A stretch of DNA of 64,000 bases from assembly GCF_008831285.2 (NCBI RefSeq), contig NC_045146.1, positions 13,881,149 through 13,945,148 of the forward strand, written 5' to 3'. The stretch comes from Nymphaea colorata. Lineage: Eukaryota; Streptophyta; Magnoliopsida; Nymphaeales; Nymphaeaceae. Below, piece after piece: positions 14,960 to 59,192 of the stretch; positions within the stretch are counted from its first letter, which is position 1, and the number at the start of each line of letters is the position of its first letter. The position numbers were made by a program, and so were the translations under genes. A model generated the notes under the pieces. It made no database searches. It was not told where the DNA came from and saw only the letters and a list, made by a program, of their open reading frames with translations.

Positions 14960-14999
14960 ACAAACACATTCATGTCATTGATATTTGACGACTCTGTTA

Positions 15000-15860
15000 A
15001 AGTCGACATAATATAACGCCCAAAAAACCTATGCAACATGTAATGCCTGCAGAATCAAACGCCGAACTCAAAAATATATGGAAAAAGAAAAGCTTAAAAA
15101 CCATAATTCATGGATCATCCGCAGCCTCAGCAGCAGCTGCAAATTTAGCAACTCCACTCCTGTATTACGCTTTTTTATTTCAGGCGTGCCACTTGCTCGA
15201 CCCCGGAAGAAAACGAATGCTGCTGAAGAATTGGCGGAATAGAGAAAAGGGGGCTGGAAAAAACAAAAGAAAAACGGAGTGCGACAGAGAACAGAAAGAA
15301 AGCATGAGAGAAATATGACCTGAGACGGGAACACGCAGGAAGCAAGAGGGTCGTCTAGCTTCAGTCCACTGGTTCGAACTTGGCAGAAGATGAATGCTGC
15401 TGAAGTGCTGACGGTGAACACACTGATGAGGGGATGCGATTTCTGGAACCCTGCAAGAGGAAGACGATCGGATGGGCCGTGATTAAAAAGTGGAAGCGCC
15501 GGGTCATGGGCGGCATGGAGAAAAGGGAGCCGGGGAAAGCGAGAGAGAAAGAGAGAGAGCCAAAAGAGAGAGAGATAAAACAGGAGAGAAATAGCTGTAC
15601 GTTTCACCGGCGGCCGGCGGTATATGCCCAAAAGACGCACCGAGAGTGGAAGAGAAATGAACCTCCTGCTTCGCTGAAACGGGAATTCGCGCTCGCGGGA
15701 GAGAGAGATGCGCCTGCTTGAAGCCCTAACGGCAAAAAGAACAAATTACAAACCAGCGCCTAATAAAAAGGCTGATACTACAAAACCGCTCGAGTTTTGG
15801 CACTCACCAAAGAGCACCTCAACCTTTGCATGTAATTCTCAAATAACCGCTTCCTTTTAA
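15000..15860. other. RH57-flank segment, copy in L1, no clear gene
   Basis: Between RH57 and block A. The minus strand is rich in CT runs (about 15540-15580 and 15690-15710 on the plus strand as GA runs) and carries the telobox-like AGCCCTAA near 15722. A 190-codon minus-strand ORF spans 15640-15068, but its reading frame is broken by indels in the L2 copy, so I do not call it a gene. The segment could contain the distal promoter or an untranslated first exon of RH57. Confidence 0.5.
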
Positions 15861-15944
15861 AAATTATTGTAATAATTAAAATAAACTACAAAATTGCCTT
15901 AAAACAAAAAAAGGTTGACCCCTGGACAGTCCCTTTCTCTTTTC

Positions 15945-16470
15945 CCTTTCCTGCAATTCTCTGCAGAGCTTCATTGGCAAGACTACTAAGGGATGAAGGA
16001 CAAGAAGAAGAGCTCCAGCAAGAAGCTGCTCGTCGTGCCTCACTCAGTGGCAATGGAGGGGAGCACCTCAAAGCAAAACCTGTTTGAGAGCACTTGGATG
16101 TAGCGGAAGAAGCTCGATGTCGTTGGGGAGAAGTGAGATTAAGTAGCACCGGTTGGGCTAGATCTAAGGCAGTCAAGAAGGCGAGTTATTGCTTCCTGAC
16201 TGTCCGCTTCATCGTTTCCCTTTCTTTCTCCATGTTCTTTTTCCCGGCATGGCAAATCCTTCATTGGGTTTTTCATTCTTGAATTTTGTGCGTACAAAAC
16301 CTTCCACTTCATGGAAGAGCTTCAAGTGATCTACCTGCTTATGGAAGTTACTGCAGCCTGGACGCTGTTGAACAAGATTTGAAACAATAAATCGACATTT
16401 CCAAAATGGACAGTAATGGATAAAATGATTGACAAGGAGATGCCTGACCTTTCCTCTTTTACATAAACTT
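15945..16470. other. Conserved segment present in A and B, coding-like but broken
   Basis: Nearly identical to 25430-25960. One plus-strand frame reads LARLLRDEGQEEELQQEAAR and, after one in-frame stop, continues EHLDVAEEARCRWGEVRLSS. The family is not one I recognise. It may be a captured gene fragment; block C lacks it. Confidence 0.4.
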
Positions 16471-16879
16471 ACAGAAACCAGATTGCTTCAAGCTCGACGA
16501 AGCAGAATACTTGAAGAAAAAAAAGAAGGCTGCTTCTTATTTATTTCAATGAAACAATGTTTTCCAAAATACAACCAGGATTGGTATCCGCACAAAGACG
16601 GTGAAGGCAAACCCTCATTCAATGTGGAGGAGATTTATCGAGGAGGGACCATGGAAGCGTCCGGGCTCTACCTCGTTGGCACCGGTGGGAATCAGACAGC
16701 CGCTATCAACCCTCACCGGACGGCAAGCGTCTTGCCGGCCTTTTTTTATATATAATATTTTATATAAACTAAATTTCTTTCTGAAAATTTGAGGGGTAGC
16801 CGTGCTGCTATCTGCCGGTCCCCTAGCTCTGCCCTCGACGGCTCGACTCACCTTGGTAAGAAGACCTCACACCATCCGG

Positions 16880-17340
16880 TGGATGTATACGGAGCAGTTC
16901 AGGTCTCATTTAGATGAATCGACAGGTGTGTTTAGAAGAAAGGATTTGGTGGCTTCTCAGTTAGTAACTGGCCCATCCTTGGCGTATCTCAAATCTGTGT
17001 TGAAATCGCGTAGATTAAAAGGAAAGCTCTTGATTAGAATCCTCAAGACGTCAATTCTCTTCAAAAAGAAAAGTGAAACTACTGATATACAGGACGAAGA
17101 AAAGAAAGAGGAGTTGAATAGAAGTTTCGGCTTTCAGTGGATCTCTCCAACTCACATAAAATGAAGTTAACAACGTTTATGTCATTTCTAACAACGATGA
17201 TATTCGAAAGAGTGCATTCGAACAATGTTGGAGGGCAGGAGCAGACTGAGGATATTTTTATACATTCGCTTTCTATATCTTCTTGTTTGCCCGCTGCAGA
17301 CTTCTGTCTTGTTAACTCCTTTGTTTCTTGATTTTATTTC
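16880..17340. other. Segment unique to block A
   Basis: A runs through this 460-bp stretch, whereas B jumps from AAGACCTCAC (26179) directly to the sequence matching 17341. It overlaps a 120-codon plus-strand ORF (16802-17164) with the charged stretch KSRRLKGKLLIRILKTS. No family is recognised. It is either a deletion in B or an insertion in A. Confidence 0.5.
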
Positions 17341-18039
17341 TAATGTATATTCTTTGATTCTATTCTGGATTCTCAGTCAATAAAAGCAGGAGGTGTAACC
17401 TCCAGTGGACTGGCTTTCAGTCAGTCTAATCGTTTGGCTTCAAATTTTCTTTGTTAATAACAAGCATCTCAACTCTGGTGTGCTCCTAAAGAGATTGGCA
17501 AGAAATTTAGGAATAAGCATGTGCCTGAGTATTGGAGACTACGTTCACGCACGGTCATTTGGTTGATTTTGAAAATTCCGAATCGGGAGATGAAGAGCTG
17601 TATGCAATTCTTAAGTATTGAATATTCAAGATCGTGAAAAATGGAAAACATAACAATATTATGATACGAAATATTTTTCCAAATTCTTAATTCTTTGATG
17701 CTTGTTATAATATAAACTTACGTATGTATTTTTTTTTTTATTTCTGTATAAAAGAGGTTTTTATTTTCTGGATTGTAAAACTTTATCCCTCAGCACATGA
17801 TTTTCCAGACATTAGTTAACAGCTGTAGACAAATCTTCAGAAACATCCTCATGTTTATGGCATAGTTAATGGTATGCCTTAGATTACATATATGGATCAA
17901 CCCTACAAATTAAACATTATGTAAAAACCAAGTTTAATGTTCAATTAGTTTCCGAAACCTCATTTGTATGTTTGAATAACGAGGCAAAAACCGACCTCTT
18001 GGTACACTTTCAGGGCATGGAAAATCATCGAATGGAGGA

Positions 18040-18040
<1 letters not shown>

Positions 18041-18089
<49 letters not shown>
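18041..18089. repeat. Compound (TA)n(TG)n microsatellite
   Basis: A short TA run followed by about 16 TG units in block A. The matching place in B (27088-27125) is a pure TA run, so the repeat has changed type between the two blocks. Confidence 0.9.
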
Positions 18090-18092
<3 letters not shown>

Positions 18093-18604
18093 ATCATACA
18101 TGCAGATTAAACAATTAAATCTAACAAAAGTGTAAATTGTTCATACATGTGCATAACTAAATTGGTGTCTGCTGCATCAAAATCCATGTGAGAGCTGAAA
18201 TGGAAAATACCAAAATGATTAAAGAACCATTATTGCCTTTTGACAAATGATCTGATTAAACCAAAGTACTCCAACTGGTTGATTAGAAATGCATCTTTGC
18301 ATTATTGGTATCGACAAATCTACCTTTGTCTTTCAGCTGAGTAAGTTAAGGGGCTCATAATTAAATTTGTTTTCATTTCAAACAAAATGGCAAAAGTACC
18401 GTAAAAAGAAACAGTGGAAAGGAGTGATTGAATAGAAGGGAGAAATAAGTTCTTGACATAGAAATGATTAACTTGTGTTAAGGGAGTTAGAATGTTAGGA
18501 ATGAATTTGAGAGTCACAATAATGCAGGGATGCACGCGTCTTTGAAGCTGCAGTCAATATCGGCTCCGTTTCAGGTTAAAAAATTAATTTAAATGTTTCA
18601 TAAA

Positions 18605-18636
<32 letters not shown>

Positions 18637-20004
18637 GCTTTTATTGTTCAGCAAAGAGCAGAAATTTAATTGATACAAAAATCTGGCTCTTTCTCTGGAT
18701 GGCAATTTTTTCGAAACTCGCTTTGAAAAAAATTGAATTTTTTAAAGCAGTTTTTGAAACTTGTGCATGTATGTAGGTGATAAGACCAAAGCAAACGTTT
18801 TCTGTGAATTTGAGAATTCGTAAAGCCTGTTTGAAGAAAGGAATAAAAACTTAGATGACATCATATCAAGAAATTTTTATGACGCCAGCGATGGTGTTTA
18901 ATAAATTGGAGGATCTCCTTCATATTGGAAAACGAATGTCTCCAAAGGAAATGAGCAAGCGACGGTTCTTTCTCTTTCGTCATCTTTTCTACGTCAGAAG
19001 ATTAAAAAAGAGGAGAGGTTAGATCTGTCGCAGATTTTCTTCACAGTAAGGGTCTTCGTTATCAGACAAATTTATCATAACCTGTTCTAGCAGCATTGAT
19101 CAAATCAAATCTGACAAGTTCAATTAGTTTAATCCTAAAAAAAATTAACTTGGGAAACCGGAAGAGAACTTCAAGTCTAGAAACTTTTATATAAAATTAG
19201 AGACCTGGTTTCAACAGCCAGACCTGAATTTGACTATGATTTCAAAAAACGGGTCTCACGTTTATGAACAGTAATAGCGAGCATTTTCTATGAAAGATGC
19301 CAGATTGAGACAATATTCTTCCTTTTTCCATGATCATGGCGTGAGACGTGAGAAGGCAAGCTAAGTTTGATTGGGTATGTAAGTTAATTAGCAGTACCAA
19401 ACATTGATCAACTTAATTAGAAGGCCTTCGTTGAAAAGAACATGGAAATATTGGAAAGACATCGTGTTACTGGAATATGCCTTTGAAGAACACATTGTTG
19501 ATTTGATCTACTCGCGAAATGTCCACTTAATTGCCTCAACATGCCTAATCTCATTTATAAAGATGTATTAATTGCTTGAAAAGTGTTGGCGTATTTTTAA
19601 AAAATATTTTCAAATTTTTCAGTTGGACCTCTCTAGGGATGTCAACCATTCAATCAGATGTACTCTCTACCAACTTGGATTTGCTGGATGCCCACATATT
19701 TGGATTTGAATTTCGATTCAAATATGAGAAGATGTCACGTCATATTTGAATCTGATTTTTAATTTCACAATCCCAATACTATTTGCACCTAATTTTTCCT
19801 TTTGCACCTGAATCCGAATCCGATTTTTACATAGATAACCACATTTTAGCTGCATCATGACATGTTAAGGACCAACTTTCAAAATGAATGCATGGTTATT
19901 TCTTAAATCTAAATACAATCTAGTTTCTTAGTCAGATGTTCATTTTTTTTTCTAAATATGTATGAAGCCGTTGCTTGAATATCAATTCGAATCAAATCCG
20001 GTCA

Positions 20005-20160
20005 AAGACCAAAGCAGGGTCCCCTTAGAAAAAAATAACAATTTACATGTAAATTAAAGAAAATATCATGTATAAAATTTTGGAAATTGATATTTCGGCC
20101 TTTGTCAAAATTTTGAAACTATAATTTGATCACCTCATGAAAAAATCCTGGTTTTGTCCA
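20005..20160. repeat. Dispersed repeat of the kind also seen at 61041-61200, block A copy
   Basis: Shows the order (GGGTCCCC), ATGTAAATTAAAGAAAATAT, TTTCGGCCTTTGTCAAAATT, AACTATAATTTGATCACCTC, AAAAATCCTGGTTTTGTCC. The same order is found at 29045-29200 (B), 46190-46400 (C) and, more diverged, at 61041-61200. It is probably a small non-autonomous element or an old fragment of one. Confidence 0.45.
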
Positions 20161-20773
20161 CGACATTCGTAACAACATGCGGTGAAATCATAAATAATAC
20201 AATGGCGTGTTAGGTTGAGCTTTGTACTGCTTAGATATGTTTGAGCATTCCAGACAACAGATATGGGCAGTTAATTAAGGGGCCGGCCCAAAACTGTGGA
20301 GCTCACTATAAAGAACAGGAAGAGGAAGATACGAAAATGACCATTAATATTTTGGTAGCGAGCTCTAGCTGCGCATCCGTGTTCACAACTGGTAGAATGA
20401 AAGAACCAAGTTAAGGAGAAAGATGTCAACATGAACAGTAATAGCTAGTTTCAGCTTTGCTTATAGATATTAAAAAAAAATGATAAGAGTATTAACAGTC
20501 ACGTTTTTTCTATGTCTAGATCTGATTTTATCATCACTTGACAATACAAAGGCCGTTAGTTATTAAAATTTTACAAATCGATCTACTGGATCTTGCTTCA
20601 CTATTTTTTCTAAATTATACAGTTTTTTATTTTTTATTTTATTTAAAACTCATAGTTTTATATCTTAATATACTTCCATTGGATTAAATTTGTAGAGAAA
20701 AACTTAAAAAGTAATGGACGGGATGAGGATCCGTATCCGGTCATTGGATGGTCGGTTAACTAATCTCTTTGTG

Positions 20774-20805
<32 letters not shown>

Positions 20806-21279
20806 AACATTTTAAATAAAACATGAACATGGTACTAAACATGTTAACAAATAGTAATTTAATTAGTAATATAAATCAACCATACTTTAGTATCGATAGT
20901 TTTCATAAAAAGTACTGATTTTTTATCATTAGAAATTTGATAGTACTAAAATAGCTGTTAACTTTTTGATGAATAAAATTACGTTTGGACTTAATATATG
21001 GTTCCTCTAATTTTTAATTATTTTAGGGGGTTTGGTGTTTTGGCCTTTACCCAAGTGGTTTGATACACACTCTCTCACACACATATATATCTATCGGTGG
21101 CTTGGTTTTGGGACCGGATTTTACATGACCCATTTCCTCTTTAAGATCTGCCACTTTTAAAGTGAAAGTTTCTTAATTTCAGACCTTATGAACTATTAAC
21201 ATCCAAGTCGAAATTAATGATTATGGTAAACATGAAAAGAAAAAGAAGAAGAAGAAGAAAGAGAGAGAAAGAAGGAAAG

Positions 21280-21281
<2 letters not shown>

Positions 21282-21341
<60 letters not shown>
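21282..21341. repeat. Compound (AT)n(GA)n microsatellite
   Basis: About 17 AT units followed by about 13 GA units. The equivalent in B is at 30321-30365 (AT only), with separate CT and CA runs near 30475-30503. Confidence 0.95.
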
Positions 21342-22174
21342 TCAAGTCTATGGAGAAGTGAGTATAACTTGTGACAAAAACGGCATATACTTTCTATTAA
21401 GTTCTAGAAGAGGTCCAAAGTGCCCAAAAAGTCATCTTCAAAAACAGGTACATGTTTGAAAATGGTGTTGTAGAATAGATGAGGCACACGGAACAGTAAA
21501 TTCTAGAATAGATGCGGTACACTACATGGTTTTACGGCTTTTCAAGAGAGTAATTGCAGTTTCACATCCGAGCTTTCTCTTCCAACCTGCTCAAAAGCAT
21601 AATGGATAGTGTGTGAAACCTCAAAGCAGATGCTACACTTGGTTTCTCAGCACATGGCTTGACTTCAATAGAACCCAGCCTTGAGATTCATGTGAAGCAC
21701 AGTTGGTACATTATTTACGAACCCAATCTACGTGGAAACACACTCGGTACATTATATATGTAACGAATTTTCGTTTTTTGTATTCAAAGTGAACAACTCT
21801 ACTGCTTAAAACCAGTGAAAACCCAAAAATCCCTATTCCAAACACAATGACAATTGACAAACTCTTACAAGCATGCACATTTTATACATTGGACAACGGA
21901 ATGTTAATTTAATATGTAGTTTGGTCCGTTGATTGGTCCGTGATATGGTTATTTTCCTAAGGTACCAAATTTTGGTTTTTGTGGCGCCTTCCCCGGCGAA
22001 ATGTTGCCATGATGGGACTAGTGGCGGATCACCAAGTTTTTTTTTGCCGAAGGGTACTTTGAGCCACCGACCTAGGTCTGGTGTGGGCACCACATATGGC
22101 TGGACCACGTTCAGTTTCATTGCAATGCCAAACCAACACACATGTAGCTTTGCTATTTATCGTCATACCACACG

Positions 22175-22604
22175 TACGGGTGAACAACGAGTCGAGCTAC
22201 TCGAGCTCAACTTGTTAAAGGTCGACTTGTGACGAGTTCGAGCTGAGTCATTTGCTTAAAGAGTCAAACTCGAGTTCATAAGTCGATTCGTTCAAATAAT
22301 CGAGTTGAGTTCGAGCTCAACACGTAACTGCCGAGTAGAGTTCGACCCTTAATCGAGTTTGTCGAGCCTTAATTGAGTCGAGCTTGAGCTCAACATATAA
22401 CGATAAACATTAATTCTATTCAAACGAGTTTGTTGAACCGTAATTGAGTCAAACTCAAGCTCAACACGTAACTGTCGAGTCAAGTTCGAGTTGCTTTCGT
22501 CGAGTTATTCCCGAGCTTGAGCCGAGTCCAGCCCGAGGTTTCATTAGTTGAGCCAAGCTCGCGCTGACTGAACTCGGGCTCGACTAAGCTCGTGTTCACC
22601 TCTA
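22175..22604. mobile_element. hAT-like MITE, block A copy
   Basis: Terminal inverted repeats are TACGGGTGAACAACGAG at the left and CGTGTTCACCTCTA at the right (consensus TAGGGGTGAACA). Flanking 8-bp sequences are ACCACACG (22167-22174) and ACCACACC (22605-22612), a target duplication of hAT length. The interior is built of GAGCTCGAG-like motifs. This copy has the fewest internal repeat units of the three, about one. Confidence 0.8.
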
Positions 22605-23591
22605 ACCACACCAGCACACATGTAGCTTCGTTACTAGGTAGGACAGGCCACCGGTGTCATGCTTGTGACCATGGTTCAATGATCATGATTAACCATCACT
22701 CCTTCAAGCAAGCTAAAGCTGCATCTGCAACCTCAATTCTAGAAGGTACGCACAGAGGTCTAAGTCTGCTGGTCTCAACATTGTGCCAAAGAAAAACGTG
22801 GAGCCAAGTTTAGACTCGATCGGACGAACCACAGTGAGGAGGATGGCATGGAGAACTTTCCAACTCAACTAGTCATGTTATGGAATCAATCTTCAAAGTC
22901 AATCTGTGGTGTGTCGCCCTGGGTAAGAAACTTCAAAAACTTGTTAGTGGTTGTGTTAGAAATTTCTAGCAATTTGTGTGCCAGAAAGATCACAGTGCTT
23001 AAATCTTCTTGCTGCTAGAACCGTCTCTATCTACTTTGTTCGTTGTCTCTTCAGTTGGTCGTTTTGACCAGATTACATCTTCAAGTAACTTTTAAAACAG
23101 TTCAGCTTTTGGAAGGTCAACATTCAAAGTGCAGCACTTGAAAGGTGCTAGAATATATTCTCCTGCCGTTAGAAGAGGCAAGGGCGGAAATATTTCATGC
23201 ACATGTGCATATATTTGCTCGGGTATATCAACAATGTACGCATATAGGGTGCAAGACCGGAGATGTAAGAGCATATATTGAAGCTTTTGATAATCCAAGA
23301 AAAAACAATGTGTATTTGTTTGTTTTATGCTTGGTTGTCTTGCTTCATCAATATAGTTTCTACTTGGCAGGAATTGAAGTGGATGGTAGTGGGTTGAGAT
23401 CCACCATACTACACTCCCCTCAGTTTTAGCTAGACTGGGCCTGACTTTATTTTGTTCAGTTCCTTCGACGTATTTTTTTCTTATCTATTTACTAAACGAT
23501 TGCCAAAACCAGCGAATTTCTCAATATAGAGAAAACATTTAACATGCAGCGCGTCTCCATCTGCTTGCTGTAAGGGTTGAAATTTAAAACG

Positions 23592-23628
<37 letters not shown>

Positions 23629-23793
23629 CGTCTGTGGTGTGTGTGTGTTTGTATGTTTTGTGGATTTCTTTTTTAGTTGATGAAATCCTCTGGCCTCTCA
23701 CAGTACACGCCTTGAAGCATTTGCATCAACTGTTCTATTTAATAACATCTACCTAATGTATTGCAGCGACTGGATGGAACTCAAGATTATTAG

Positions 23794-23796
<3 letters not shown>
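22605..23796. other. Block A, MITE right flank to TA array
   Basis: A 73-codon plus-strand ORF (22592-22813) recurs in B (31693-31914) and C (48773-49018) with a few changes, but its start lies inside or just beyond the MITE edge and I see no domain in it. The rest is AT-rich DNA without a recognised gene. A TA run with TG extension lies at about 23594-23632. Confidence 0.4.

Positions 23797-23866
<70 letters not shown>
23796..23866. repeat. Long (AT)n microsatellite
   Basis: Uninterrupted AT run of about 35 units. The matching run in B (33205-33231) is much shorter, and C lacks the region. Confidence 0.95.
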
Positions 23867-23867
<1 letters not shown>

Positions 23868-26800
23868 AAATATGAGTATCAATATTAACAAAATAGTTGA
23901 AGGCCATCACTAAAAACATTACCCAAAGAAGCGCCACACTAAAAATAGTTTATGGTGTAGAAACAGTTTATTATGTTTTTAACGATGGTTTATGTCACAT
24001 ATTTAGCTATAATTTCTAAATATCTAGTCATCCGAAAATATTTTTCAAATAAAAAAATTCAGTATATATTTATATGTATTCAGCATGCATCGACTCTTCG
24101 TATATATACATAAAAGAAAAATAAAAATTACGATATACACGGTTGGTATATGTCAAATCAACTTGAATCGGGTCCCAGGGCACGGGGGTGAGATTTCAGT
24201 GAAACTGGGAGCAACAACTACAATGGATGTGACGACAGGTCGAAATTAAGCAGTATGTGAGGCCGCGCCGTGACGACTAACTGTTTGGTGAAACGACTCA
24301 GCACCTTCTTCCTGGCCCCTTTGTATTTGACACCGCTATATTATAGTGTACGTACGTGCATGCATGCGGTGTTGAATACCAACAAGTTTGATGGAAGTAA
24401 AAGTCGCATATCTGCCCGGTCCATATTTTGCACTCCTGTATCCTTCGGCTTCTTTGTTTAATTTTAAACCAGTCCGAACAATGTAGTCAATCGGAGACAA
24501 CTTTTACAAACACGTCTTTTCTTTGACAAATTTTCTGCCCGACTTCGGCGGTTGTCTTCGTATGTCTTAAATTCTTTCTTTTATTGCTTCATTCAATTAT
24601 AATTGGTCTACAACATAATCTGATTCAGAAGTACTCTGCATATATGCGATTTTTCTATTCCATTCCTTGTTTCTTTGCCCATATGCAGGTGTTAATCGGT
24701 AATAGGAAACAAAAAATCAACAACTAATAACTTGGAAAAAACACACCTTAAAGTTTGAGGGTCATAAAAAAAGCACACTTAACTCTTGGATTTTGTCAAA
24801 AATATACTCAAGTTTTACACCATTAATAAAAAATCATTAACTTTAGGTTATTACTAACTAACTTAGGGTAGTGTCATGTGAAAAGAAAAAACTAAAATGC
24901 CATCAACAAAGATAATTTTCAAGTTTATTAGTCTGCATTGGCCAGCTTTATCTAAGTCTCAACTAATATCTTATTAATATTTAAAATGGACATAAAAAAC
25001 AAAACTTGCTATATTTTTGATGTCATATTTTAGAACTATGGGGAAACTTAGGTGTGTTTCGTAAATTTTTTCCCTATTAATTGGCAAATTCAACCTCAAG
25101 GCTTCATTCGGAACGCTTAAACGAACAAAGGAATTCAATACTTCTTTATCAGAAACAAATTCCAAAAGCAACTTCTCACTTTTTTTCGTTTTGAAGGAAA
25201 GAGTCGCATACCCTCACAGCCGATTGCAGAACTTTTGTGCACTTGCGTTTTAAAGTTTACTTCTTCCACATATTTTCACAGTTTTAACATTATATAAATT
25301 TGGTCGTCCTGACATTTCAAAACTCAGAAAACAAATTTTGATAGATCAACTTATGCGAATATGTATTAAAATTATTATAATAATAAAATAAACTGCGAAA
25401 TTTCCTTCTCAAACAAATTTTCTTTTCCCTTTCCTGCAATTCTCTGCAGAGCTTCATTGGCAAGACTACTAAGGGATGAAGGACAAGAAGAAGAGCTCCA
25501 GCAAGAAGCTGCTCGTCGTGCCTCACTCAGTGGCAATGGAGGGGAGCACCTCAAAGCAAAACCTGTTTGAGAGCACTTGGATGTAGCGGAAGAAGCTCGA
25601 TGTCGTTGGGGAGAAGTGAGATTAAGTAGCACCGGTTGGGCTAGATCTAAGGCAGTCAAGAAGGCGAGTTATTGCTTCCTGACTGTCCGCTTCATCGTTT
25701 CACTTTCTTTCTCCATGTTCTTTTTCCCGGCATGGCAAATCCTTCATTGGGTTTTTCATTCTTGAATTTTGTGCGTACAAAACCTTCCACTTCATGGAAG
25801 AGCTTCAAGTGATCTACCTGCTTATGGAAGTTACTGCAGCCTGCACGCTGTTGAACAAGATTTGAAACAATAAATCGACATTTCCAGAATGGATAGTAAT
25901 TTATAAAATGATTGACAAGGAGATGCCTGATCTTTACTCATTTACATAAACTTACAGAAACCAGATTGATCCTTGCGGCGCACTGACTCACCTCATTGGC
26001 ACCGTGGGAATCAGACGGCCGCTATCAACCCTCACCGGACGGCAAGCGTCTTGCCGGTTTTTTTTTTTTTATATAATATTTTATATATACTAAATTTCTT
26101 TCTGAAAATTTGAGGCGCAGCCATGCCATGTGCCGGTCCCCTAGCTCTGCCCTCGACTCACCTTGGTAAGAAGACCTCACAGCATCTAATATATATTCTT
26201 TGATTCTGAATTCTCGGTCAATAAAAGAAGGAGATGTAACCTCCAGTGGACTGGCTTTCCGTCAGTCTAATCGTTTGGCTTTAAATTTTCTTTGTTAATA
26301 AAAAGAATCTCAACTCTGGTGTGCTCCAACAATTTGGAAACAGATTGGCAAGAAATTTAGCAATAAGCTTGTGCCTGAGTATTGGAGACCATATTCACGC
26401 GGCTGATTTGGAAAATCTGCGAATCGGGAGCCGAAGAGTTGTATGTAATTCTTAAATATCGAATATTCAAGATCGTGAAAAATTGAAGACATAACAATAT
26501 TCTGATACGAAATATTTTTCCGAAGTTTCCAAGGGCCAAGATGAATTTTTCCAGAGAGTTGGCAGAGGGCATTCAATTTTCCAAAATTCTTACGAAGGAC
26601 AAGATTTTCAAAATGAACAAGGGGTCTTCAACTTTCCAAACTCTTACAAGCGCCAGCTTGAAATTTTTAATTTTATCAACATGAAATTTTATTTCATTTT
26701 TTTTTTCAAAATTGTGGGGTAGGGGCGGTTAAAAACTTAATTCTTTGATGCTTGTCTTAATATAAACTTACGTATGTAATTTTTTTTATGTCTGTATAAA

Positions 26801-27084: not shown

Positions 27085-27127
<43 letters not shown>

Positions 27128-27729: not shown

Positions 27730-27761
<32 letters not shown>

Positions 27762-30316: not shown

Positions 30317-30320
<4 letters not shown>

Positions 30321-46331: not shown

Positions 46332-47529
46332 ATATGTCGGGCCTTATCAAAATTTTGAAACTATAATTTGATTCCTCCATAAAAAATTCCTAATTCTGTC
46401 CATGACATTAGGGTGACATCCGTAACAACATGCCGAGAAGTCATAAATACAATGGCGTGTTAGGTTGAGCTTTGTACTTATGTTTTGAGCATTCCAGACA
46501 ACAGATATGGGCAGTCAAATATGCCCTTAATTAAGGGGCCGGCCCAAAACTATCGAGCTCATTATAAATTATAAAGAACAAAAAAAAAAAAAGGAAGAGG
46601 AAGATACGAAAATGACCATTATAAATTATAAATTATAGTCTGCGCATCCGCGTTCACAACTGGTAGAATGAAAGAACCATTATCAACATGAACAGTAATA
46701 GCTAGTTTCAGCCTTTGCATATAGATATTAAAAAAATGATAAGAGTAATAACAGTCACGTTTTTTCTATGTCTAGATCTGATTTTATCATAACTTGACAA
46801 TACAAAGGCCGTTAATTATTAAAATTTTACAAATCGATCTACTGGATCTTTCTTCACTATTTTTCTAAATTATAGAGTTTTTAAATTTTTTTTCTTTAAA
46901 ACTTATTGTTTGATACCTTAATATACTTCCATTAGATTACATTTGTAGAGAAAAACTTAAAAAGTAATGGAAGGGATGATGCTAGAACCGTATACGGTCA
47001 CTAGATGGTCGGTTAGCTAATCTCTCTCCGCACGCGCACGCACACACACACACACAAACATTTTAAGTAAAACATGAACATAGTACTAAACATATTAACC
47101 AATACTAATTTAATTAGTAATATAAATTAACCATACCATACTTTAATACAAATAGTTTTCATAAAAAGTATTGAATTTTTTATCATTAGAAATTTGATAG
47201 TACTATAATAGCTGTCAACTTTTTGATGAATAAAATTAGAATCAAACTTTAAAGTAGTGGACTTAATATATGCTTCCTCTAATCTTTAATTATTTTAGGT
47301 GGTTTGGTCTTTACGTAAGTGGTTTGATTCACACTCTCTCGCACACACATTTTCCTCCTTAAGATCTGCCAATTTTAAAAAGTTTCTTAATTTCAGACCT
47401 TATGATCTATTAAAATCCAAGTCGAAATAATGATTATGGTAAAAGAGAAAGGAGAAGAAGAAGAGAGAGAGAGAGAGAGAGACAAACACGTGTTTCCATT
47501 AAAACCTAAATAGAGAAATCTATAGATCC

Positions 47530-47565
<36 letters not shown>

Positions 47566-48247
47566 GAGTCTAGTCTGTGGAGAAGTGAGTATAACTTGTG
47601 ACCAAAAACAGCAAATACTTTCTGCAAAGTGCCCAAAAAGTCATCTTCAAAACAGGTACATGTTTGAAAATGGTGCTGTAGAATAGATGAGGAACACGGT
47701 ACACTCATTTCATATGTTGTAGAATAGTGTGTGAAACCTCAAAGCCGATGCTAAACTTGGTTTCACTTTCTCAGCATGTGGCTTGACTTCAATAGAACCC
47801 AACCTTGAGATTCATGTGAAGCATATGAAATGCGCTTTTTGTTCCCCAATGTACGTGGAAACACAGTTGGTACGTTATATATGTAATGAATTTCTATTTA
47901 TTGTATTCAAAGTGAACAACTCTACTGTGTTTGGAACCTATTCCAAACACAATGACAATTGACAAACTATTATAAGCATGCACATTTTATACATTGGACA
48001 AAGGATTGCTAATTTTATATATAGTTTGGCCCGTTGATTGGTCGGTGATATGGTTTAAATTATTTTTCCTAAGGTACCAAATTTTGATTGTTGTTGCGTC
48101 TTCCCCGGCAAAAATGTTGCCTGAGGGGCACTTTGATTCACTGACTTAAGTCGGCATGGGCACCACATATGGCTGGACCAGGTTCAGCTTCATCGCAATG
48201 CCAAACCAACACACATGTAGCTTCGCTGTTTATCGTCATACCACACC

Positions 48248-48809
48248 TAGGGATGAACAACGGTGATGAGTTCGAGTCGAGTCATTTGCTTAAAGAGTCG
48301 AGCTTGAGTTCATAAGTCGACTCATTTAAATAAGCGAGTTGAGTTTGAGCTCAACACTTAATTGTTGAGTCGAGCTTCAGCCTTAATCGAGTTTGTCGAG
48401 CCTTAATGAAGTTGATATATTCAAACAAGTTTACGAGTTTGTCATGCCCCAATTGAGTTGAGCTCGTGCTCAACAAGTAATGATGAATATCAATTCTATA
48501 ATCAAGTCGAGCTCGAGCTCGAGCTCAAGCTCAACACGTAACGATAAATATCAATTCTATTCAAACGAGTTTATCGAGCCTTAATCGAGTTGATCCAACA
48601 CATAACGATGAATATCAATTCTATTCAAACAAGTTTGTCGAACCTCAATCGAGTCGAGCTTGAGCTCAACACGTAACTGCCGACTCGCGCTCGAGCTGCT
48701 TCCGTCGAGCTATTCTCGAGCTCAATTCGAGTCAAACTCAATGTTTCATTAGTCGAGCCGAGCTCAAGTTGATTGAACTCATGCTCGACTCAGTTTTTGT
48801 TCACCCCTA
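48248..48809. mobile_element. hAT-like MITE, block C copy
   Basis: Starts TAGGGATGAACAACGG and ends TTTGTTCACCCCTA, flanked by ACCACACC (48240-48247) and ACCACATC (48810-48817). It contains about three of the 70-bp internal units (ATTCAAAC near 48421, 48561 and 48622). This copy gives the clearest 8-bp target duplication. Confidence 0.85.
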
Positions 48810-50640
48810 ACCACATCAGCAGACATGTAACTTCGCTACTAGGTGGGACAGGACACCGGTGTCATGCGGGTGACCATGGTTCAATGATCATGATTAACCA
48901 TCGCTCCTTCAAGCAAGCTAACGCTGCATCTCCAACCACAATTCTAGAAGGTACGCACAGAGGTCTAAGTCTGCTGGTCTCACCATTGTGCCAAAGAAAA
49001 GTCTGGAGCCAAGTTTAGACTCATACCGAGGTGGAAGGCATGGAGAATTTTCTAAATCAACAATAACTAGTAGTCATGTTATGAAATCAATGTTCCAAGT
49101 CAATCTGTTGTGTGTCGCCTTGGGTAAGAAACTTGAAAAACTTGTTAGCGGTTGTGTTAGAAATTTCTAGCTGAGGGTACTATAAATTATAGACTTTTGA
49201 AGCCACCAATATGTATATAAGTCAATAATTCTGAGATATGAGTATATAAATAAGCAATTTGTGTGCTAGAAAGATCACTTTTCCTGCTTTTCTACTCTTG
49301 TAGACGCCCTTTTATCAATATGAGAGTGTGTACAACTCCCCCACTAGGTCCCAATGTACACAGGCTGCTAGTAGTTCTTAAATATTCACGCTGCTAGAAC
49401 CGTCTCTACCTACTTTGTTCATATTGTCTCTTCAATTTGTGTCAGTCGTTTTGACCAGATTACACCTTGAACTAGCTTTTAAAACAGTTCAGCTATTGGA
49501 AGGTCAACATTCAAAGAGCAGGACTTGAAAGCTGCGTAGAATATATTATCCTGCCATTAGAAGTGGCAATGGCGGAAATATTTCATGCACATATGCATGT
49601 ATTTGCTAGGGCAATATCAGCAATGTACGCATATATGATGCAAGACCGGAGATGTAAGAGCAATTATATATTGAAGCTTTTGATAATCCAAGAAAAAACT
49701 ATATATATTGTTTGTCATATGCTTCGCTGTCTTGCTTCATAGAATCATATATAGTTTCTACTTGGCAGGAATTGAAGTAGTTGGTAGTGGGTTGAGATCC
49801 ACCATACTACACTCCCCTCAGTTTAGCTAGACTGGGCTGTTCATATTGAAGTTGCTTTTCTAAGATTTGCTTTCCTTGAGCTCTGGAAAAATTGCAATAA
49901 GAAATGCATTAATTTTATTTTATATTATATGTACGTGCATGCATGCGGTGTTGAATACCAACAAGTTTGATGGAAGTAAAAGTCGCATATCTGCCCGGTC
50001 CATATTTTGGACTCCTGTATCCTTCGGCTTCTTTGTTTAATTTTAAACCAGTCTGAACAATGGAGTCAATCGGAGACAACTTTTACCAACATGTCTTTTC
50101 TTTGACAAATTTTTCTTCGATTTTTCTTTTTCCAATTTTCTTCCAGACCTCGGCGGTTGTCTACAAATGTCTTAACTGTTTGGACAAATTCTTTCTTTTC
50201 TCGCTTAATTTAATTATAATTGGTCTACAACATACTGCGATTCAGAAGTACTCAGCATATATGCGATTTTTCTATTCAATTCCTTGTTCCTTTGCCCATG
50301 TGCAGGTGTTAATTGGTAAAAGGAAAAAAAAAATCAGCTACTAAGAACTTGGAAAAACACACATTAAAGTTTGAGGGTCATTAAAAAAGCATACTTAACT
50401 TTTGGATTTTGTCAAAAATATACTCAAGTTTTACACCATTAATGAAAAATCATTAACTTTAGGTTATTACTAACTTAGGGTAGTGTCATGTGAAAAGAAA
50501 AAACTAAAATGCTATCAACAAAGATAATTTTCATGTTTATTAGTCTGCATTGGCCAGCTTTATCTGAGTCTCAACTAATATCTTATTAATATTTAAAATG
50601 GACATAGGAAACAAAAACTTGCTATATTTTACATGTTATG

Positions 50641-51015
50641 TTTTAGCTGGAGGTTCAAATGGTAAGGATCCAACAAGTAACAATCCATCCGGTAGAATTA
50701 ATACGAAAGGTCTCGTTGATGTACCAATGTTACAAAGATTGGCCTAAATCATATCACTTGGCATGCCCCTTGGATTTAGTGGACAATGCAGGAGCACGCG
50801 CCATTTTTTATTAGTTTTAAATATTTAAAGAGCTTTTTTGTTTATATAAATTATTATACATTTCTTCATTTTTTTTAAAAAATAATGAATGTTCTAATAT
50901 TTCCCCAATTCACAATCGATTCAACTGATCAATTGCTCAATTAGTCGGTTCTCCAAAATAAACAGCTCGGCCAATTTGAGTCAAAAGGCGATTTCATATA
51001 TCTATATATATATAT
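50641..51015. other. Sequence present only in block C
   Basis: Starts CTGGAGGTTCAAATGG and ends in a short TA run. B has the first bases (CTGGAGG) and then a pure TA run; A has none of it. Whether C keeps an ancestral sequence or received an insertion cannot be told from this window. Confidence 0.6.
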
Positions 51016-51345
51016 AAACTATAGGAAATCTTATTTGTGTTTCGGAAATTTCCTGATTAATTGACAAATTCAACCTTAAGGCTTCATTTGGAACGCTTAA
51101 ACGAACAAAGGAATTCAATATTTCTTTATCATAAACAAACTCCAAAAGGAACTTCTCGCTTTTTTTCGTTTTGAAAGGAAGAGTCGCATATCGTCGCAGC
51201 CGATTGCAGAACTTTTGTACACTTACGTCTTAAAGTTAACTTCTTCCACATATTTTCACAGTTTTAAGATTATATAAATTTGGTCGTCGTCACATTTCAA
51301 AACTTAGAAAACAAATTTTGATAGATCAACTTATGCGAATATGTA

Positions 51346-51893
51346 TAAAAATAAATATTTTGACATTTAGACCGTCAAAACTTTATATAAATTGAATTCT
51401 TGATCCTTAAAAAAAAAATCCTTTCTACACATCCAGACAAACAATTCTTTCCAAAGCCGGCTTCCACACCCTAAAAGGTAGAAGTCTCAAAAGAAATGCT
51501 TGAAACCTTGATTCCATATGCCCTCACATTCAAGTCTTGCGTCTTCATCAGCATCACACACACATATACATATATATGTATATATATACCTCACTACCAC
51601 CAAAGCTGCCTAATAAACTTGTGGCCTTTAATCTTGCATGCATCGATGCACATGTTGTGAGATATATATCAAAGAGGAAGAGAGGATCATTCTAGAAAGA
51701 AAAAGAAGGCAAGGACTGGTGAACTGTGCGGCGCTTGGACTATAGCCACCTTCATTTGACTCCCATCCTTCGCATTCGAAAACAATGTATTCTTCCACGT
51801 GGCACAATCCAATGCGTGTGAACTGTTGAAAGCAAACACGGCTGAAGATGATTGACCTTTCTTTGTCTCTCTCTCTCTCTTCAAATTTCCCTC
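51346..51893 (+). promoter_or_regulatory. Upstream region of SLAH copy 3
   Basis: Matches 34937-35437, including the CCACGTGG element near 51797 and a CT tract at about 51866-51880. It contains about 75 bp (51590-51670) not found at copy 2, which has a TA run there instead. This is the only sizeable promoter difference seen between the two genes. Confidence 0.5.
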
Positions 51894-51901
51894 TATATAT
51901 A
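51894..51901 (+). promoter_or_regulatory. TATA box of SLAH copy 3
   Basis: TATATATA, 43 nt upstream of the ATG at 51944, with the same surroundings as in copy 2. Confidence 0.65.
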
Positions 51902-51943
51902 CATTCAAAAGGCTCCCCACTTACTAGCACGAACAAAAAGGCC

Positions 51944-53205
51944 ATGGCGAGGATGCAGCAGGAGACTGGTCACCCTCCTTCTCCCTTCTTGGCGAGGTTC
52001 CATGCAGATCTCTTCCGCGTCTCCATGGCCCTCGCTGGCCAAGCCCTCCTTTGGAGGACCCTCAGCTCCGGCTCCTTCTCCGATCCATGGCCTCCCCTCT
52101 TCAACTCTATCGTCGAGAAATCCTTCTGGCTGCTGGCCGCCCTCGTCCTCTCTTCCTCCTCCCTCGCCTACCTCTTCAAATCCATCTTCCACTTCCACGT
52201 CGTCAAGGCCGAGTTCCTCGACCGGTGGAGGGTCAACTACCTCTTCGCCCCATGGATCGCCGCCATCTTGCTCCTCCAGTGCCTGCTTCCTTTTAGATAC
52301 GACCATGAGAGGAGCAGCGGCAGCGGCTTGGGAGGGAGCAAGTTCATCAACTGGGGCCACCTGGCGCCGCTCATTTCAAGAGCCCTCTGGTGCGCTTGCA
52401 CGGCGGCGGTATTGCTGCTGGAGGTCAAGATCTACGGCCAATGGTTCACCAAGGGCAAGCGCTTCCTCTCCACCGTCGCCAACCCCTCCACCCACCTCTC
52501 CCTCATCGGCAACTTCGCCTCCGCCCAGGCCGCGGCCCGGCTAAACTGGATGGAACCCGCCCTATTCTTGTTCTCCGTGGGTATCGTACATTACCTGGTG
52601 GTGTTCGTTACGTTGTACCAGCGGCTTCCGTGCAACGCTTCTTCGCCTGCACGGTTGCAGCCGGCGATCTTCCTGTCGATCGCGGCCCCCAGCATGGCTT
52701 CCGTGGCTTGGGCCTCCATCTCCGGTCACTTCGACACCGCCTGCAAGATGTTCCATTTCCTCTCCATTTTCCTCTTCTTGATGCTGGTAAGTTCGCTAAA
52801 AACCTTCAGACTGTACATCATCCAACTTTCATGATAGTAACCAAACTTTTCCCTTGATCACAGATTGTGAGGCCAACTCTTTTCGCAAAAGCAATGAAGA
52901 AATTCAATTCTGCGTGGTGGGCATACGTGTTCCCTGTCACGACGCTTGCACTCTCATCAGCTGAGTATTCGTTGGAAGTGGGTTCTGCGGTAGCCCATGG
53001 AATCCGAAGGGCCATGTCCTTGATCTCGCTGGCCATGACGCTCGCCTTGATTCTGCTCACACTCGTTTACAGGAAGGCCGTGTTCGTTGATGACACGTCT
53101 CTCTTTCCTAAGCAGACAAAAGTGCTGCCAATCTCTTCGCCAACAGCCAGTCCGGCCATGGAGGAGCATGTTCCCGACCAAACCACCCTGGAAGTCGGGA
53201 GATGA
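51944..53205 (+). CDS. SLAC1-homologue (SLAH1/4-like) S-type anion channel, copy 3
   Basis: Two exons, 51944-52786 and 52864-53205, with a 77-bp intron as in copy 2; 394 residues. It differs from copy 2 by a 2-residue deletion in the Ser-Gly repeat of the loop near residue 127 and by 11 substitutions. In copy-2 numbering these are V120D, F137I, P145L, F154C, I189L, A191G, L272F, V320L, D321E, D358V and K384E. Most lie in loops and in the C-terminal tail; F154C and A191G fall in or beside predicted helices. Both genes are intact and should give functional proteins. The function expected is the same as for copy 2. Confidence 0.95.
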
Positions 53206-56200
53206 TAAGAAAACAGAAGGTTGATAGGAAAAAAAGAATCAAACAGTAGGCCATTCTTACGTCTAGGGACCAACTTTTATCTCCTAAACTTCAGCAACAT
53301 CTCACTTTTTTCTTGAGCATTTTTTGACACCACCCATTCTTTTGTCCTGACAAGTTTTAAAATTTGGACGAGACTCAGGATAATTAGAAACTCCGCCACC
53401 CTTCCCAGAGTTGATTTCTGACAGTTCCTCGTGGAAGGTTGAATCGCTTCTTCAACTTTACAGCAAAGGCAAGGTATTAATACTGCCATTGAATTGAATA
53501 TTACTCGGATTTAAACCTGAGTTCAGATGTAGCGGTCAACATAGGTATTCTCTAGCAGTGATCAAGAAGCCCATGGACTTAAACTGAGAAAGATGATACC
53601 TGTCCCTGTTATTAAGGAGAACCGTTGGTCCAAAAAGCTGGAAAATTTTTGAAAAGAGATGCAGTACGTTCTTTTTATTAAATGAAAAAGTTCAGGAGAA
53701 CTGTACAATTAGAAGGTCTCCTCTCAGATATCCTTGCATGTATTTTGCCTACATGGTGCACATGTATATAATATAGTCTGCAGTTCAAAGTATCTCTACA
53801 TATACCGTTCAGGTACAAGCACACTACTAGACTGATTTTTATAAAACACAAGAGTTCAGAGATGGGCTTATTTGTTGGTTCGTCAGTCAGCTTCTGTTTC
53901 TCAACAAGAAATTGCTACTTGAATAGTAAAGTTCAAACTGATGCAAGTAAAATATGAAACATTTGATCATCTACCAAAGTATTTCTTTTTCTGTTTTCTA
54001 CATTGATATTGGTGAAAGTTTTATAGAAGCAACAGTGCTGCTGTTCTCAACAGAAAATATAACAAGGAAGTTTTATAGAAGCAAAACCAAAAATCCAGGA
54101 TCAACCAAGGGAATATGATGATGGAGAGAAACACCCATTTTGCTATTCTCAGAATTAGTACATTGATGATGTTCACACTGAAGTCAATACCATGTGGAAT
54201 ATGAAAAGCATTTCAGGACAAGAAACATATAAAATGGGCCATCATCCTTCTCCCAAACTGACATTAGAAGGCCAACTAAGAAAGACATTCCACAACATCA
54301 GAAATATAAGACGGCCAAAGGCCGCATCATCTAATTAATGATCCAACCATCTATACTTGAGTACGGCTCTAATTGAAAATTGATCAATTAAGACTAGTAT
54401 TTAGGGCGATTCACCTGAACATTACTGTATTGCTATTAGAAGAATACTATATGGATGAGTGTGTGGACGGTGTTGGGCCCTGAACTCCCACCTTCAGGGT
54501 AGAATAGATTGGGTTGCGTGTACACCACCAAAGGAATGATGGGGTATTTTTTAAGCTTTTTTATAAAATAATGAATATTTTAGACTTTTTTACTTTCTCA
54601 CAATCGATTTATTTTATTTTAATAAAGTTATTTTGGTCATTGCATACCTTTGTGCACATTTTTTTGAGCATTGGAGTGGGCACATAACAAGCTTCATGGG
54701 GAGGAAGCGGGTTATGCACGCACTGCTGCTGCTGGTGCATGCACTAGGTGAAAAAATGACTAAAAAATCCCTTCTCTACAAAAAGAATTTAGGCCCCCTT
54801 CATAAGCGCAAAGAAGGAAAACAAAAATTAAATGGCTAATTTTTTTGAAATGATGAAAATACCCTTTACAGCAGCCAGTGTAAAGGGTCGTCCATTATGA
54901 GCTCTCGCTTCTTTTGCAAACCCTAATCAATCTTCTAATATCTACACAGATTTCAAGTTAAAATCTTTCTAAGACCCAGGGCAATTTTGTTTTATGGTAC
55001 TCAGGATCTAGATGATATTCAATTACTCAGATAATTTGTAGTATAATACTGTAGTCTTTCATCTGATTACTCCTAGTAAAGGTGCCAGGAATGGTTTCTG
55101 GCTTTACCTGTTAACCTCAACATATAACCTTCTCCTTTTGGTGGGGCGAGGTTTTTAAATTTCGATTTCTTACCTGCCTCACTGAGAACTCAGAACTTTG
55201 TTAGAAGATAACTCTTCATCATGACTATATATGTTGCGAAAATGAGTAGTGGGTGGATGGTTTGTAAAAATGGGATGCAGACGGACGTTCCGTTATATTC
55301 ATGGAGCTAGTTTATATTGTTACATTCAAATTAAACTTATAGTTTGGGTGTGCCATTTGGTATTTCAAGTTTTTTTTTTTTTTTCAAACCGCAAAGGTAG
55401 ATCGAAATGTTTTAAAATGCAAGTTAAAAAAATGATGAACAAAATGTTTGGAATGGATTTTTTATGACGACTGAACAAAGATTGTGAATATTAAAACCTG
55501 TATAGAATCTGATCTAAACGTCAATTTAATTTTTAGCCCTCTACATTTAGATATGGTATCCAATGGCTATATTTGTAAAGAAAAAAGAAAGTTGATAGAA
55601 CCAAACAATTCTTAGGCCACAACTAACAGCATGTTATTTAAGTTTGTGGGGTGTGTCTCTAGAGAAATTAAACTTATAGACTTCGCATTAGATGACAATG
55701 TAGATAGCTGAGTCTGATCTGGTTCTTCATTGAATGTTCAATAGTGAACAATCCAAAAATAAAAACGATAACTGATCAATAGTTAGAGTTTGAAGATAAT
55801 GTTAAATCAGCGTCTGACCTTAATATATGTGCTTATCTATTTTGAAAAATTAATTAACAAGTCAGATCTTAAAAAACATTAATAGATCAATGTGAATATG
55901 ATTCTATAAGCATAAAGAACTAAAGAATCACTATTCTTGAAATTGATCTTTATAAATCTGTACATGCAAATCACACACAGACCTTCATGCTTTTTACCAG
56001 ACGGTAGTTTTCAGGCAATCACATTCATTTATGCAATTGGATCTGTGAAAAAAGATAAGGAAATGGGAAGAGAACCATAAAAAGTATCAAATCAACAGAT
56101 GGTCGGACCCTTTCAGGCGACAATTATATCACAGCCGGAAACGAATGTTATAAGGCATTAGGTAGGAAGAGGCGACTTCTTTGGAAAGTTTGGTTCCTTA

Positions 56201-58554
56201 CAACTTGATGTTGCGTGTGGTTTGCAATTGCAAAGAACAGTATCATTTATAGAGGGCAGTTAGTGCACATCACAAGCAGAGTTACTCATATTCTTTGCGA
56301 TGTGACGTCCTTAATTTGCTTGATGGTCGCAACCACTATGTTAAGACTTTATCATGATCATGTAATCACTGATATTATGATCATGTAATCACTGCTTTCA
56401 TTTCTTTATCCTTGCCCTTCTAACGTCTTGTAAGGTGGCTAGCTATGTTAATATTAGATGTATATACATATAAATTCTAACGTCTTGTAAGGTGGCTAGC
56501 TATGTTAATATTATATATATATATATATATATCAACAGCCATCGTCCATCCAAATGTCTCCCTCACGCAACCCGATTACATTGGACTGCATGAGAGCTAG
56601 ATAACGGACAACAGAAGGATTTGAACCGATACCATTTTCTCTGTCTTTCTCCTTATTAAATATTTAATATTAATATACATGTTAAGCGAGACTTCGTTCA
56701 TTAAATATTAGAAGAAAAGGCTTCAGTAAAGAGAAATAGGCATGCACACCCAGAAACTTGACTACTGTAGTTATTATATACTTTAACTATTTCTCCTATC
56801 ACTTTTTCATTAAATGTCAAAAAAAATTCGGAGAGAGAGAGAGATGGTATTCAAAGTCATCATGCATTTAAAAGTAAATACGTGCCGTCTAATCATCATA
56901 ATAGACTGTTGAGAGGGAAAGAGCCCTCATGAGAGAGAGATCCTTATATTCAACGTACTAGATACAAAAATTAGCCGACCGAAATTATGTAAATTGATTA
57001 TTCAACATGTTAATCATGCTTTGCACCAAATCTGCTCACTAATTCAGGGCCCGTAACAGCAGCAATAGTTGTGCAATTCCAGGAAGGGGAACAAACGATG
57101 ATGCATGAGAAACCATTTCAATAGCCGCGTTGAAGACCTTGTAGGCTGCAACCGATTGCATATGGTTGACCTGTCCCCTTCGTTCGCACCCTCCGCATTG
57201 ACTAGTTTGTAGTTATTATGCTCTTCCATGGAGTCTGTACGCTGTGCTCCAAACAAAAATTTAGAACGATGCATGTGAATATACATCTAATTTCGTAGTC
57301 TCTGTAGCTCAACTAAAGAGAAAAGATTTAACTTGGTTTACACCACCAAAGACATCTACCAACCTTAGAGATCAATAGCACGCCAATAGCACATATATAG
57401 ATTCCTTCGTTACAATGATAAGCAAGAGGATCAGATACAAGATGGATTTATTTCTGAATCATTTGGATAACAGCCTCTTGATTTCTTGACTTGCTTTGCT
57501 GCCATTTTGATCGCATAACTGCTTTATTACATGCCCAAGTTAGTTTCCATTGATTTTTGGGAGAAAATCTGCCTTAGCCATAGCAGTAACAGTTTCATCC
57601 ATAACAATCTTATCTTGGGTACTGATTACATTTGAATGCAGGAATTTTGAAGGATGTTAAGAGTGCTATGTCTTCTAGCACCATCTTTTTCTCTGCATCA
57701 ATTATGAAATATGTTTCATCTTTCAAACGCGCATGTCTGATCGAGAAAACTGAGCCTCTTATGGTTGGTTCAGCAGGTGATCAAATGTCTCCTTATGATC
57801 AATAATGAAGGTACTGTAGTTTGATCCCAAAGACGCATTAATTGTTTGAATTTGATCAACCTACTTGGTAGGAGGCAAACAGCGGCGTTGGGGAAGCCAT
57901 TGCCCATCATTATGATCTAACATGGCACCTGGAATAACCTGTGAACTCAATTACAAGACCTGCCTGTGTAAATGGATATGATATTGCTATTACTGAACTT
58001 ATTTTGAATCCATTCAGTTGGATCTGGTAAAGAAATTAATATCCCATTGCTAATCAAGTACAGATTCAAATAGGGTATTTAATTTCATAACTCAATCTGA
58101 ATCTGCTATCTGGCTGGATTCCAAGGAAAATATGTCCTGGTTTGGATATAAACATCGGACCTTATGCTAGCCAAATCTTTGATTTAAAAAGTAGCTAGCG
58201 TACAAATCTGGTTATACAGAATCTAATCAAGTTGAATTCAGTAAAGGCTGAACCAACGGCCTAATTCCAAGCGTACAGTTTGCCTCTCTACATGCACCAA
58301 GATACTGTTTTGCAACCTTTTCTTTTTCAAAACCATCTAAACTGAAGTTGATATAATTGGTGGAAAAGAACTCAACATTTCAATGCATTTATTTTCCGAT
58401 GAAAATTGGGTGGGGGATCACCCCATTTATTAGAAAGAATTAAAGAATAGAAACAAGAAAACACGGACTAACAAAAGGACCGGCTGGCTTGTGTACAATA
58501 CAAGGAAATATTGTTGCACGTGTCAGCTTGTCTCGGACCCGCTGTATGTACAGC
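53206..58554. other. 3' flank of SLAH copy 3, no gene
   Basis: Duplicate of 36756-42117 with small indels. It contains the local duplication at 56418-56513. ORFs in this part are not kept in frame in the L1 copy. Confidence 0.6.
56418..56513. repeat. Local direct repeat of 39 bp, only in L2
   Basis: TTCTAACGTCTTGTAAGG... (56418-56456) is repeated at 56475-56513 with 18 bp between. L1 has one copy near 40045. Confidence 0.85.
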
Positions 58555-59192
58555 TAAAGCATGGCAAGGTGGGGCAATGTGTGGACAAATTGTGTGAATC
58601 AATGGGCAGCTTGAACATATTATGCAATTTGGAATACTCTCTGGGTCAAATGGTGTGGGCAGAAAATGACATGTTTGGGATGTGCTCGACATGGTCATAC
58701 CAACAAGGCACTACTCTCCCAAGTCCAATGGAAAGTACCTGAACCTTTGGACTAAATATACAACGAAGGAGGTTGTCCATATGTACGGGTACATGTGAGT
58801 AAGTGCTAATTTTCCTTGTGAACGCATAGGCTGCATATAATTGCAGTACCAACATGCGGCCAAGAGGACAAATGTTTATGGCAAGCTATGGCTTTTGTGC
58901 CTGCTATGACTCTAATAGATGAGCACAGAGCCGTGATCTAGTTGACAACTGACTTCGGCTGAAGACTTATTTGAGATATTAAAAACATGGCACGAGAGCA
59001 ACTTTTTCTAAATAACATGCTTTCTTGGTGCCTTGAGTATGTTGTTATGTCTGCAGTCGTTAGTTTTTTCAGGTTGATGACTTGCTGAGTGATGCAGTAC
59101 AGCTATTCATGAGTGTGGACAAGGAAAGAAGCCCACGATAATGGGATTCAGTTGCTAACGACTTCTCTTGCAATTATTTTGATGATTGTCAT

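Follow-up and report, generated by a model that had tools for sequence, protein, structure and literature searches.

The window analysed here, a stretch of 64,000 nucleotides from Nymphaea colorata, contains two head-to-tail outer units of 28.2 and 16.0 kb, which abut in the self-BLAST of the window (14957-43174 and 43172-59192), and each unit carries one SLAH1-type gene, g8 in unit 1 and g9 in unit 2 (Table 1). At the junction (43172-43174) the sequence found at the end of unit 2 (59192) is joined to the sequence found at the start of unit 1 (14957), which is the arrangement of a tandem duplication, and a second block of the region is organised likewise. As judged by eye from the junction sequences, the two outer breakpoints apparently have only three bases (CAT) in common, so a long repeat was probably not required for the first duplication. 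The window and 50 kb on each side (164 kb) contain 0 Ns, so no junction coincides with a scaffold gap. The tails of the two units, behind inner copies B and C, have diverged by 6.7% (528/7836 columns) since the outer duplication. An earlier note made from the sequence had proposed a nested head-to-tail duplication with these unit sizes, and the self-alignment it recommended, run as self-BLAST, recovered both the outer and the inner repeats; together with the end alignments and the junction sequences it bears out the nested structure, and the outer ends and junction given in that note (14960, 43174 and 59192) agree with ours within a few bases.

Table 1. Features of the analysed window (positions in window coordinates).
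Feature	Position	Strand	Basis
Right end of block X2, which begins 18.4 kb before the window and repeats X1	1-5153		region self-comparison
Gene g7, exon 1, cut at the left window edge	1-776	minus	tblastn
Outer unit 1: head, inner copies A and B, gene g8, tail	14957-43174		self-BLAST, junction sequences
Inner copy A, well-aligned part, no channel gene	15935-25371		self-BLAST, end alignments, tblastn
Inner copy B, patchwork of A-like and C-like tracts	25367-34944		self-BLAST, alignments, site counts
Part of B resembling A (counterpart A 18091-19520), with the 9-bp indel	27216-28646		HMM segmentation, site counts
C-like tract of B, matches C 46403-47218	29187-29974		HMM segmentation, site counts
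Second C-like tract of B, matches C 47556-47927	30494-30803		HMM segmentation, site counts
A-like tract ending B, matches A 24352-25375	33813-34948		HMM segmentation, outgroup, site counts
Identical stretch of 436 bp shared with 51866-52301, covering TATA-like site, 5' leader and some 358 coding bases	35410-35845	plus	permutation, identity rechecked
Gene g8, SLAH1-type, 396 aa, exons 35488-36336 and 36414-36755	35488-36755	plus	gene model, Pfam, structure match
335-bp non-coding tract identical to 53944-54278	37492-37826		permutation, identity rechecked
Outer unit 2: head, C (inner equivalent), gene g9, tail	43172-59192		self-BLAST, junction sequences
C, single inner equivalent in unit 2	43997-51358		self-BLAST, alignments
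Gene g9, SLAH1-type, 394 aa, exons 51944-52786 and 52864-53205	51944-53205	plus	gene model, Pfam, structure match

Both g8 and g9 are composed of two exons separated by a 77-bp GT-AG intron, and their exon-1 frames match PF03595 (SLAC1) with E values of 3.2e-28 and 1.2e-28 (99.3 and 100.6 bits against a Pfam cut-off of 27.9). These gene models and domain matches confirm a complete channel gene in each outer unit, as had been proposed. A putative promoter with the TATA-like sequence CTATATATACA lies about 50 bp before each start codon, at 35437 and 51893. In a structure comparison covering g8 and g9 only, the best solved relative of g8 was SLAH1 (PDB 9m7s, 261 bits), followed by the best SLAC1 (228) and SLAH3 (194), and g9 gave 255, 234 and 195 bits for SLAH1, SLAC1 and SLAH3, in line with the SLAH1-like identity first suggested for them. 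The seven other genes of the cluster described below are 55-75% identical to g8, the Pfam search having been run on the exon-1 frames of g8 and g9. Only 9-14 residues precede the FLARF motif in 9/9 models, whereas the match to AtSLAC1 starts at residue 182 in the alignment, and a much shorter cytosolic N-terminus is the criterion for the SLAH1/4 group according to PMC3509319. The Phe equivalent to AtSLAC1 F450 (WWxYxF) is retained in 9/9 models. At the sites of AtSLAC1 F266 and F276, whose role is described in PMC9076830, g9 has Tyr and Leu in the alignment, as SLAH1 does, and g8 has the same two residues. Between the two genes there are 11 nonsynonymous and 16 synonymous changes (dS 0.058), and their dN/dS of 0.22 indicates that purifying selection acts on the pair; this low ratio suggests that both genes are in use.

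The g8-g9 pair is one end of a larger cluster, which the earlier note does not mention, nor does it mention the second block duplication that ends at 5153. When the genome was searched at the protein level with exon 1 of g8, 17 rows came back, all of which were scored as candidates, and nine SLAH1-type exon-1 matches lie on contig 9 within 161 kb (13,772,817-13,933,934). Of the other rows, two belong to a degraded contig-10 copy and six to three genes at a greater distance, a set from which remoter family members could be missing; by the best solved structure for their exon pieces, one of these three genes is SLAC1-type and the other two are SLAH3-type. Each of the nine genes in the cluster gives an open two-exon model, with g1 on the plus strand, g2-g7 on the minus strand and g8-g9 on the plus strand, and in the tree they form one branch apart from the two SLAH3-type pieces of the genome. 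Rooted with these pieces, the tree pairs g2 with g5, g3 with g6, g4 with g7 and g8 with g9, and some deeper forks are weak. The first three pairs are accounted for by the second head-to-tail block, in which X1 (g2-g4, -44448 to -18415 in window coordinates) is followed by X2 (g5-g7, -18412 to 5153). The copies of block X differ by 6.4% (1203/18746 aligned columns) with dS of 0.033-0.044 for g2-g5, g3-g6 and g4-g7, similar to the 6.7% and dS of 0.058 of the g8/g9 block, and dS is at least 0.58 in each of the remaining 32 gene pairs. The g2/g5 pair has a long branch in the tree, its stem measuring about 0.69 changes per column, and the dN/dS between the two is 0.63; both read YGQSFT where the other seven read YGQWFT, and the C-terminus of g5 is shorter (359 aa vs 406). 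Their frames are open and conserved residues have changed, so g2 and g5 may be under relaxed constraint or may have taken on a new role.

Several further elements were observed in the region. An extra exon-2-like SLAH1 fragment, which appeared in two analyses, lies near g2 (about -49865 to -49584, tblastn E 7e-17), in another tandem repeat whose copies are offset by about 5-6 kb (-49903 to -38837), and no exon 1 was found beside it in the region examined. Pieces of a DEAD-box helicase gene (8114-11245, minus strand; PF00270 and PF00271 on two ORFs) lie between the two halves of the cluster, which have opposite orientations. Short repeats occurring in either orientation at 42120-42583, 59985-60174 and 4012-4532, and again some 97 kb into the region, probably represent a mobile element family; one array (42120-42583) breaks up the tail of unit 1 and has no counterpart in that of unit 2.

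Within unit 1, 15935-25371 matches 25418-34944 in the self-BLAST. The end alignments show that copy A runs to about 25366 and that B starts directly after it, because the short stretch at the A/B junction matches the head sequence before 15935 in A; an inner tandem duplication of about 9.5 kb, with B from about 25367, is thus present as the earlier note had described it. The copied DNA is the roughly 9.5 kb upstream of the gene, and its end lies some 540 bp short of the start codon of g8. A tblastn search of the window with the g8 protein (E up to 1) matched only g7 (cut), g8 and g9, so copy A has no channel gene and the inner duplication added none. Amplification of the channel gene therefore holds for the outer duplication, with one complete gene per unit, but not for the inner one, which is gene-free. 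The idea that the inner duplication happened on account of a protein-coding gene was considered and dropped after a non-exhaustive scan of ten ORFs, three of which lie in head or inner parts (15068-15742, 16429-16752 and 33929-34210) and had no Pfam match at E 0.01. No Rfam family matched the window at the gathering threshold. A dispersed repeat seems to make up part of the inner unit, since a DNA search of the genome with 45015-46500 gave many weak matches elsewhere, mostly to the stretch near 45815-46155. Tandem repeats of 64-71 bp occur at 31375-31636 in B and at 48460-48654 in C, with a copy number that differs between B and C, and some middle stretches, which hold this repeat and AT repeats, align poorly.

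No single tree accommodates the three inner copies, because along B tracts resembling A alternate with tracts resembling C. Sites shared by A+B, A+C and B+C, counted on A coordinates in the first of three alignments, were 63, 7 and 7 at 18091-19520 and 53, 12 and 18 at 24352-25375, which group A with B. They were 1, 6 and 36 at 20161-20961, 6, 2 and 25 at 21329-21804 and 1, 0 and 15 at 22701-22925, which group B with C, and 13, 11 and 13 at 22994-23440, which is a star. Depending on the tract, B differs by 1.3% from A, by 1.2% from C or by 7.3% from both, and since the divergence is so patchy, no one percentage describes the repeats. In the star tract the three copies are equally distant (7.3, 7.9 and 7.3%), and there A, B and C seem to have roughly the age of the outer duplication; where two copies differ by about 1%, the likeness indicates that sequence has been exchanged since the duplication. 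A homogeneity test on fixed windows of 200 columns found 0/2000 permutations as extreme in each of the three alignments, the tracts themselves having been chosen after the HMM segmentation was seen, and a cumulative test gave 0/10000 shuffles, also when neighbouring like sites were merged. Columns near a gap were dropped from these tests (within 5 bases for the homogeneity test, within 3 for the segmentation and the cumulative test), as was the part before A 18091, where C is mostly missing. Local rate differences do not explain the mosaic, because they would shift all counts together and leave the proportions unchanged; the nearest relative of B thus switches along its length beyond both chance and local differences in rate.

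The order of the duplications has to be read against this mosaic. The earlier note placed the inner duplication after the outer one because A and B have a 9-bp indel in common, and this indel is indeed present, the bases being those at C 45117-45125. The order drawn from it is not supported in this simple form, since nothing polarises the indel, it lies within one A-like tract, and other tracts of B group with C. Indels of at least 4 bp are mixed; several separate A and B from C, and many in the middle separate A from B and C, so the same logic would there give the opposite grouping. Only the last tract (A 24352-25375) could be rooted, since the contig-10 outgroup reaches no other, and in it A and B are sisters (14 sites vs 1 and 0, 754 columns), which agrees with the order of the earlier note. 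This contig-10 copy (23820515-23820952) is a degraded, dispersed copy of the 5' part of g8/g9 with about 1.2 kb of upstream sequence, and its match contains one TGA and one TAG.

Exchange between copies is also visible in and around the genes. The identical 436-bp tract that spans the start of g8 and g9 was matched in 0/5000 permutations over the whole tail and in 2/5000 within exons, and in the codon-alignment version of the test the identical coding run was matched in 7/5000. The identical 335-bp tract downstream of the gene was matched in 0/5000 permutations over non-coding columns. Homogenisation of g8 and g9 as wholes was rejected (16/288 silent sites against the non-coding value, Fisher p 0.25), and because their silent divergence is not significantly below the non-coding divergence, conversion is visible in tracts and not over whole genes. 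In block X, permutations often equalled the longest run of identical coding bases in g2-g5 (1040/5000) and g4-g7 (1112/5000), and the result for g3-g6 is marginal (231/5000); with two of the three pairs ordinary and one marginal, conversion is not shown elsewhere in the cluster.

Taken together, our results indicate that gene conversion or repeated unequal exchange came after duplication, and conversion seems likelier than one unequal crossover because several switches are needed. The probable history is that an SLAH1/4-group cluster grew by repeated segmental tandem duplication and that its copies then exchanged sequence by interlocus gene conversion. Two separate head-to-tail block duplications, of g2-g4 to g5-g7 and of g8 to g9, and an inner gene-free duplication upstream of g8 are evident from the sequence; the three inner copies probably arose within a short time, and interlocus conversion between copies probably followed.

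Three other readings were weighed against this history. The order of the earlier note, outer first and inner later, with the likeness of B and C in the middle due to later conversion from C to B or the reverse, is a possible but rather unlikely account. It would explain the closeness of A and B at either end (1.3% and 3.2%, with 98.2% identity over 551 bp at the start), their common 9-bp state and their sister relationship in the sole rooted tract (14:1:0), but the equal distance of A, B and C at 22994-23440 is unlike a young A/B split, unless an unsampled copy acted as donor. An assembly artefact, in which diverged haplotypes were placed in tandem or the consensus was mixed between copies to give a false duplication or mosaic, is least credible of all. 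Long identical tracts are places where polishing could err, but the stretch of 164 kb has 0 Ns, the head-to-tail junctions are clean, a divergence of 6-9% with many indels is large for alleles, and g8 and g9 differ at 11 nonsynonymous and 16 synonymous positions.

Adaptive dosage amplification, in which the duplications were fixed by selection for more SLAH1-type product, appears improbable. All nine frames are open and the g8-g9 pair, with its dN/dS of 0.22, is under purifying selection, which speaks for this reading, but the inner duplication adds no gene, and g2 and g5 are diverging from each other with a dN/dS of 0.63. Duplication followed by conversion remains the reading we prefer, and it carries a caution for other loci: in a tandem array the order of duplications is not readable from one indel, because a single copy yields contrary answers from one tract to the next.

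Regarding function, PMC6801462 describes Arabidopsis SLAH1 as not conducting alone and as opening SLAH3 for chloride in the heteromer, and PMC4973733 reports lower shoot chloride at low supply upon SLAH1 knockdown and higher shoot chloride at high supply upon overexpression. By analogy, the cluster products are predicted to be plasma-membrane anion-channel subunits of the Arabidopsis kind, which would be silent alone, open SLAH3 and act in xylem chloride loading. It is conceivable, as a long shot, that nine linked regulatory, non-conducting SLAH1-type subunits, multiplied while the related types remained at one SLAC1-type and two SLAH3-type genes, are interchangeable modulators which tune chloride versus nitrate flow by their combination, with conversion keeping g8 and g9 alike while g2 and g5 drift to a new role. 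A genome in which nine SLAH1-type genes stand against two of SLAH3-type would be suited to asking whether chloride loading is set by the proportion of silent to conducting subunits.

Concerted evolution is seen in tandem arrays whose copies undergo gene conversion, and the locus is of this ordinary kind, a tandem array with patchy concerted evolution. It has the head-to-tail copies, the identical tracts in diverged sequence and the mosaic copies of such arrays, and nothing categorical sets it apart, homogenisation here being patchy. No such cluster was reported in the titles and abstract openings of the literature searched; the word "anion" does not occur in the Nymphaea colorata genome paper (PMC7015852), nor do "anion" and "SLAH" in the N. 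minuta paper (PMC13254204). As compared to the SLAH1/4 group, represented by Arabidopsis SLAH1 and SLAH4, the genes have the same SLAC1 domain, SLAH1 as best match, short N-terminus and Tyr/Leu at the F266/F276 sites, whereas nine are linked here and PMC3509319 gives two group members in Arabidopsis. Tandem duplication in this group is also known from BnSLAH4-5/BnSLAH4-6 of Brassica napus (PMC8125795); that case is one pair, whereas at the Nymphaea locus blocks were duplicated, a gene-free duplication is nested inside, and copies are patchworks.
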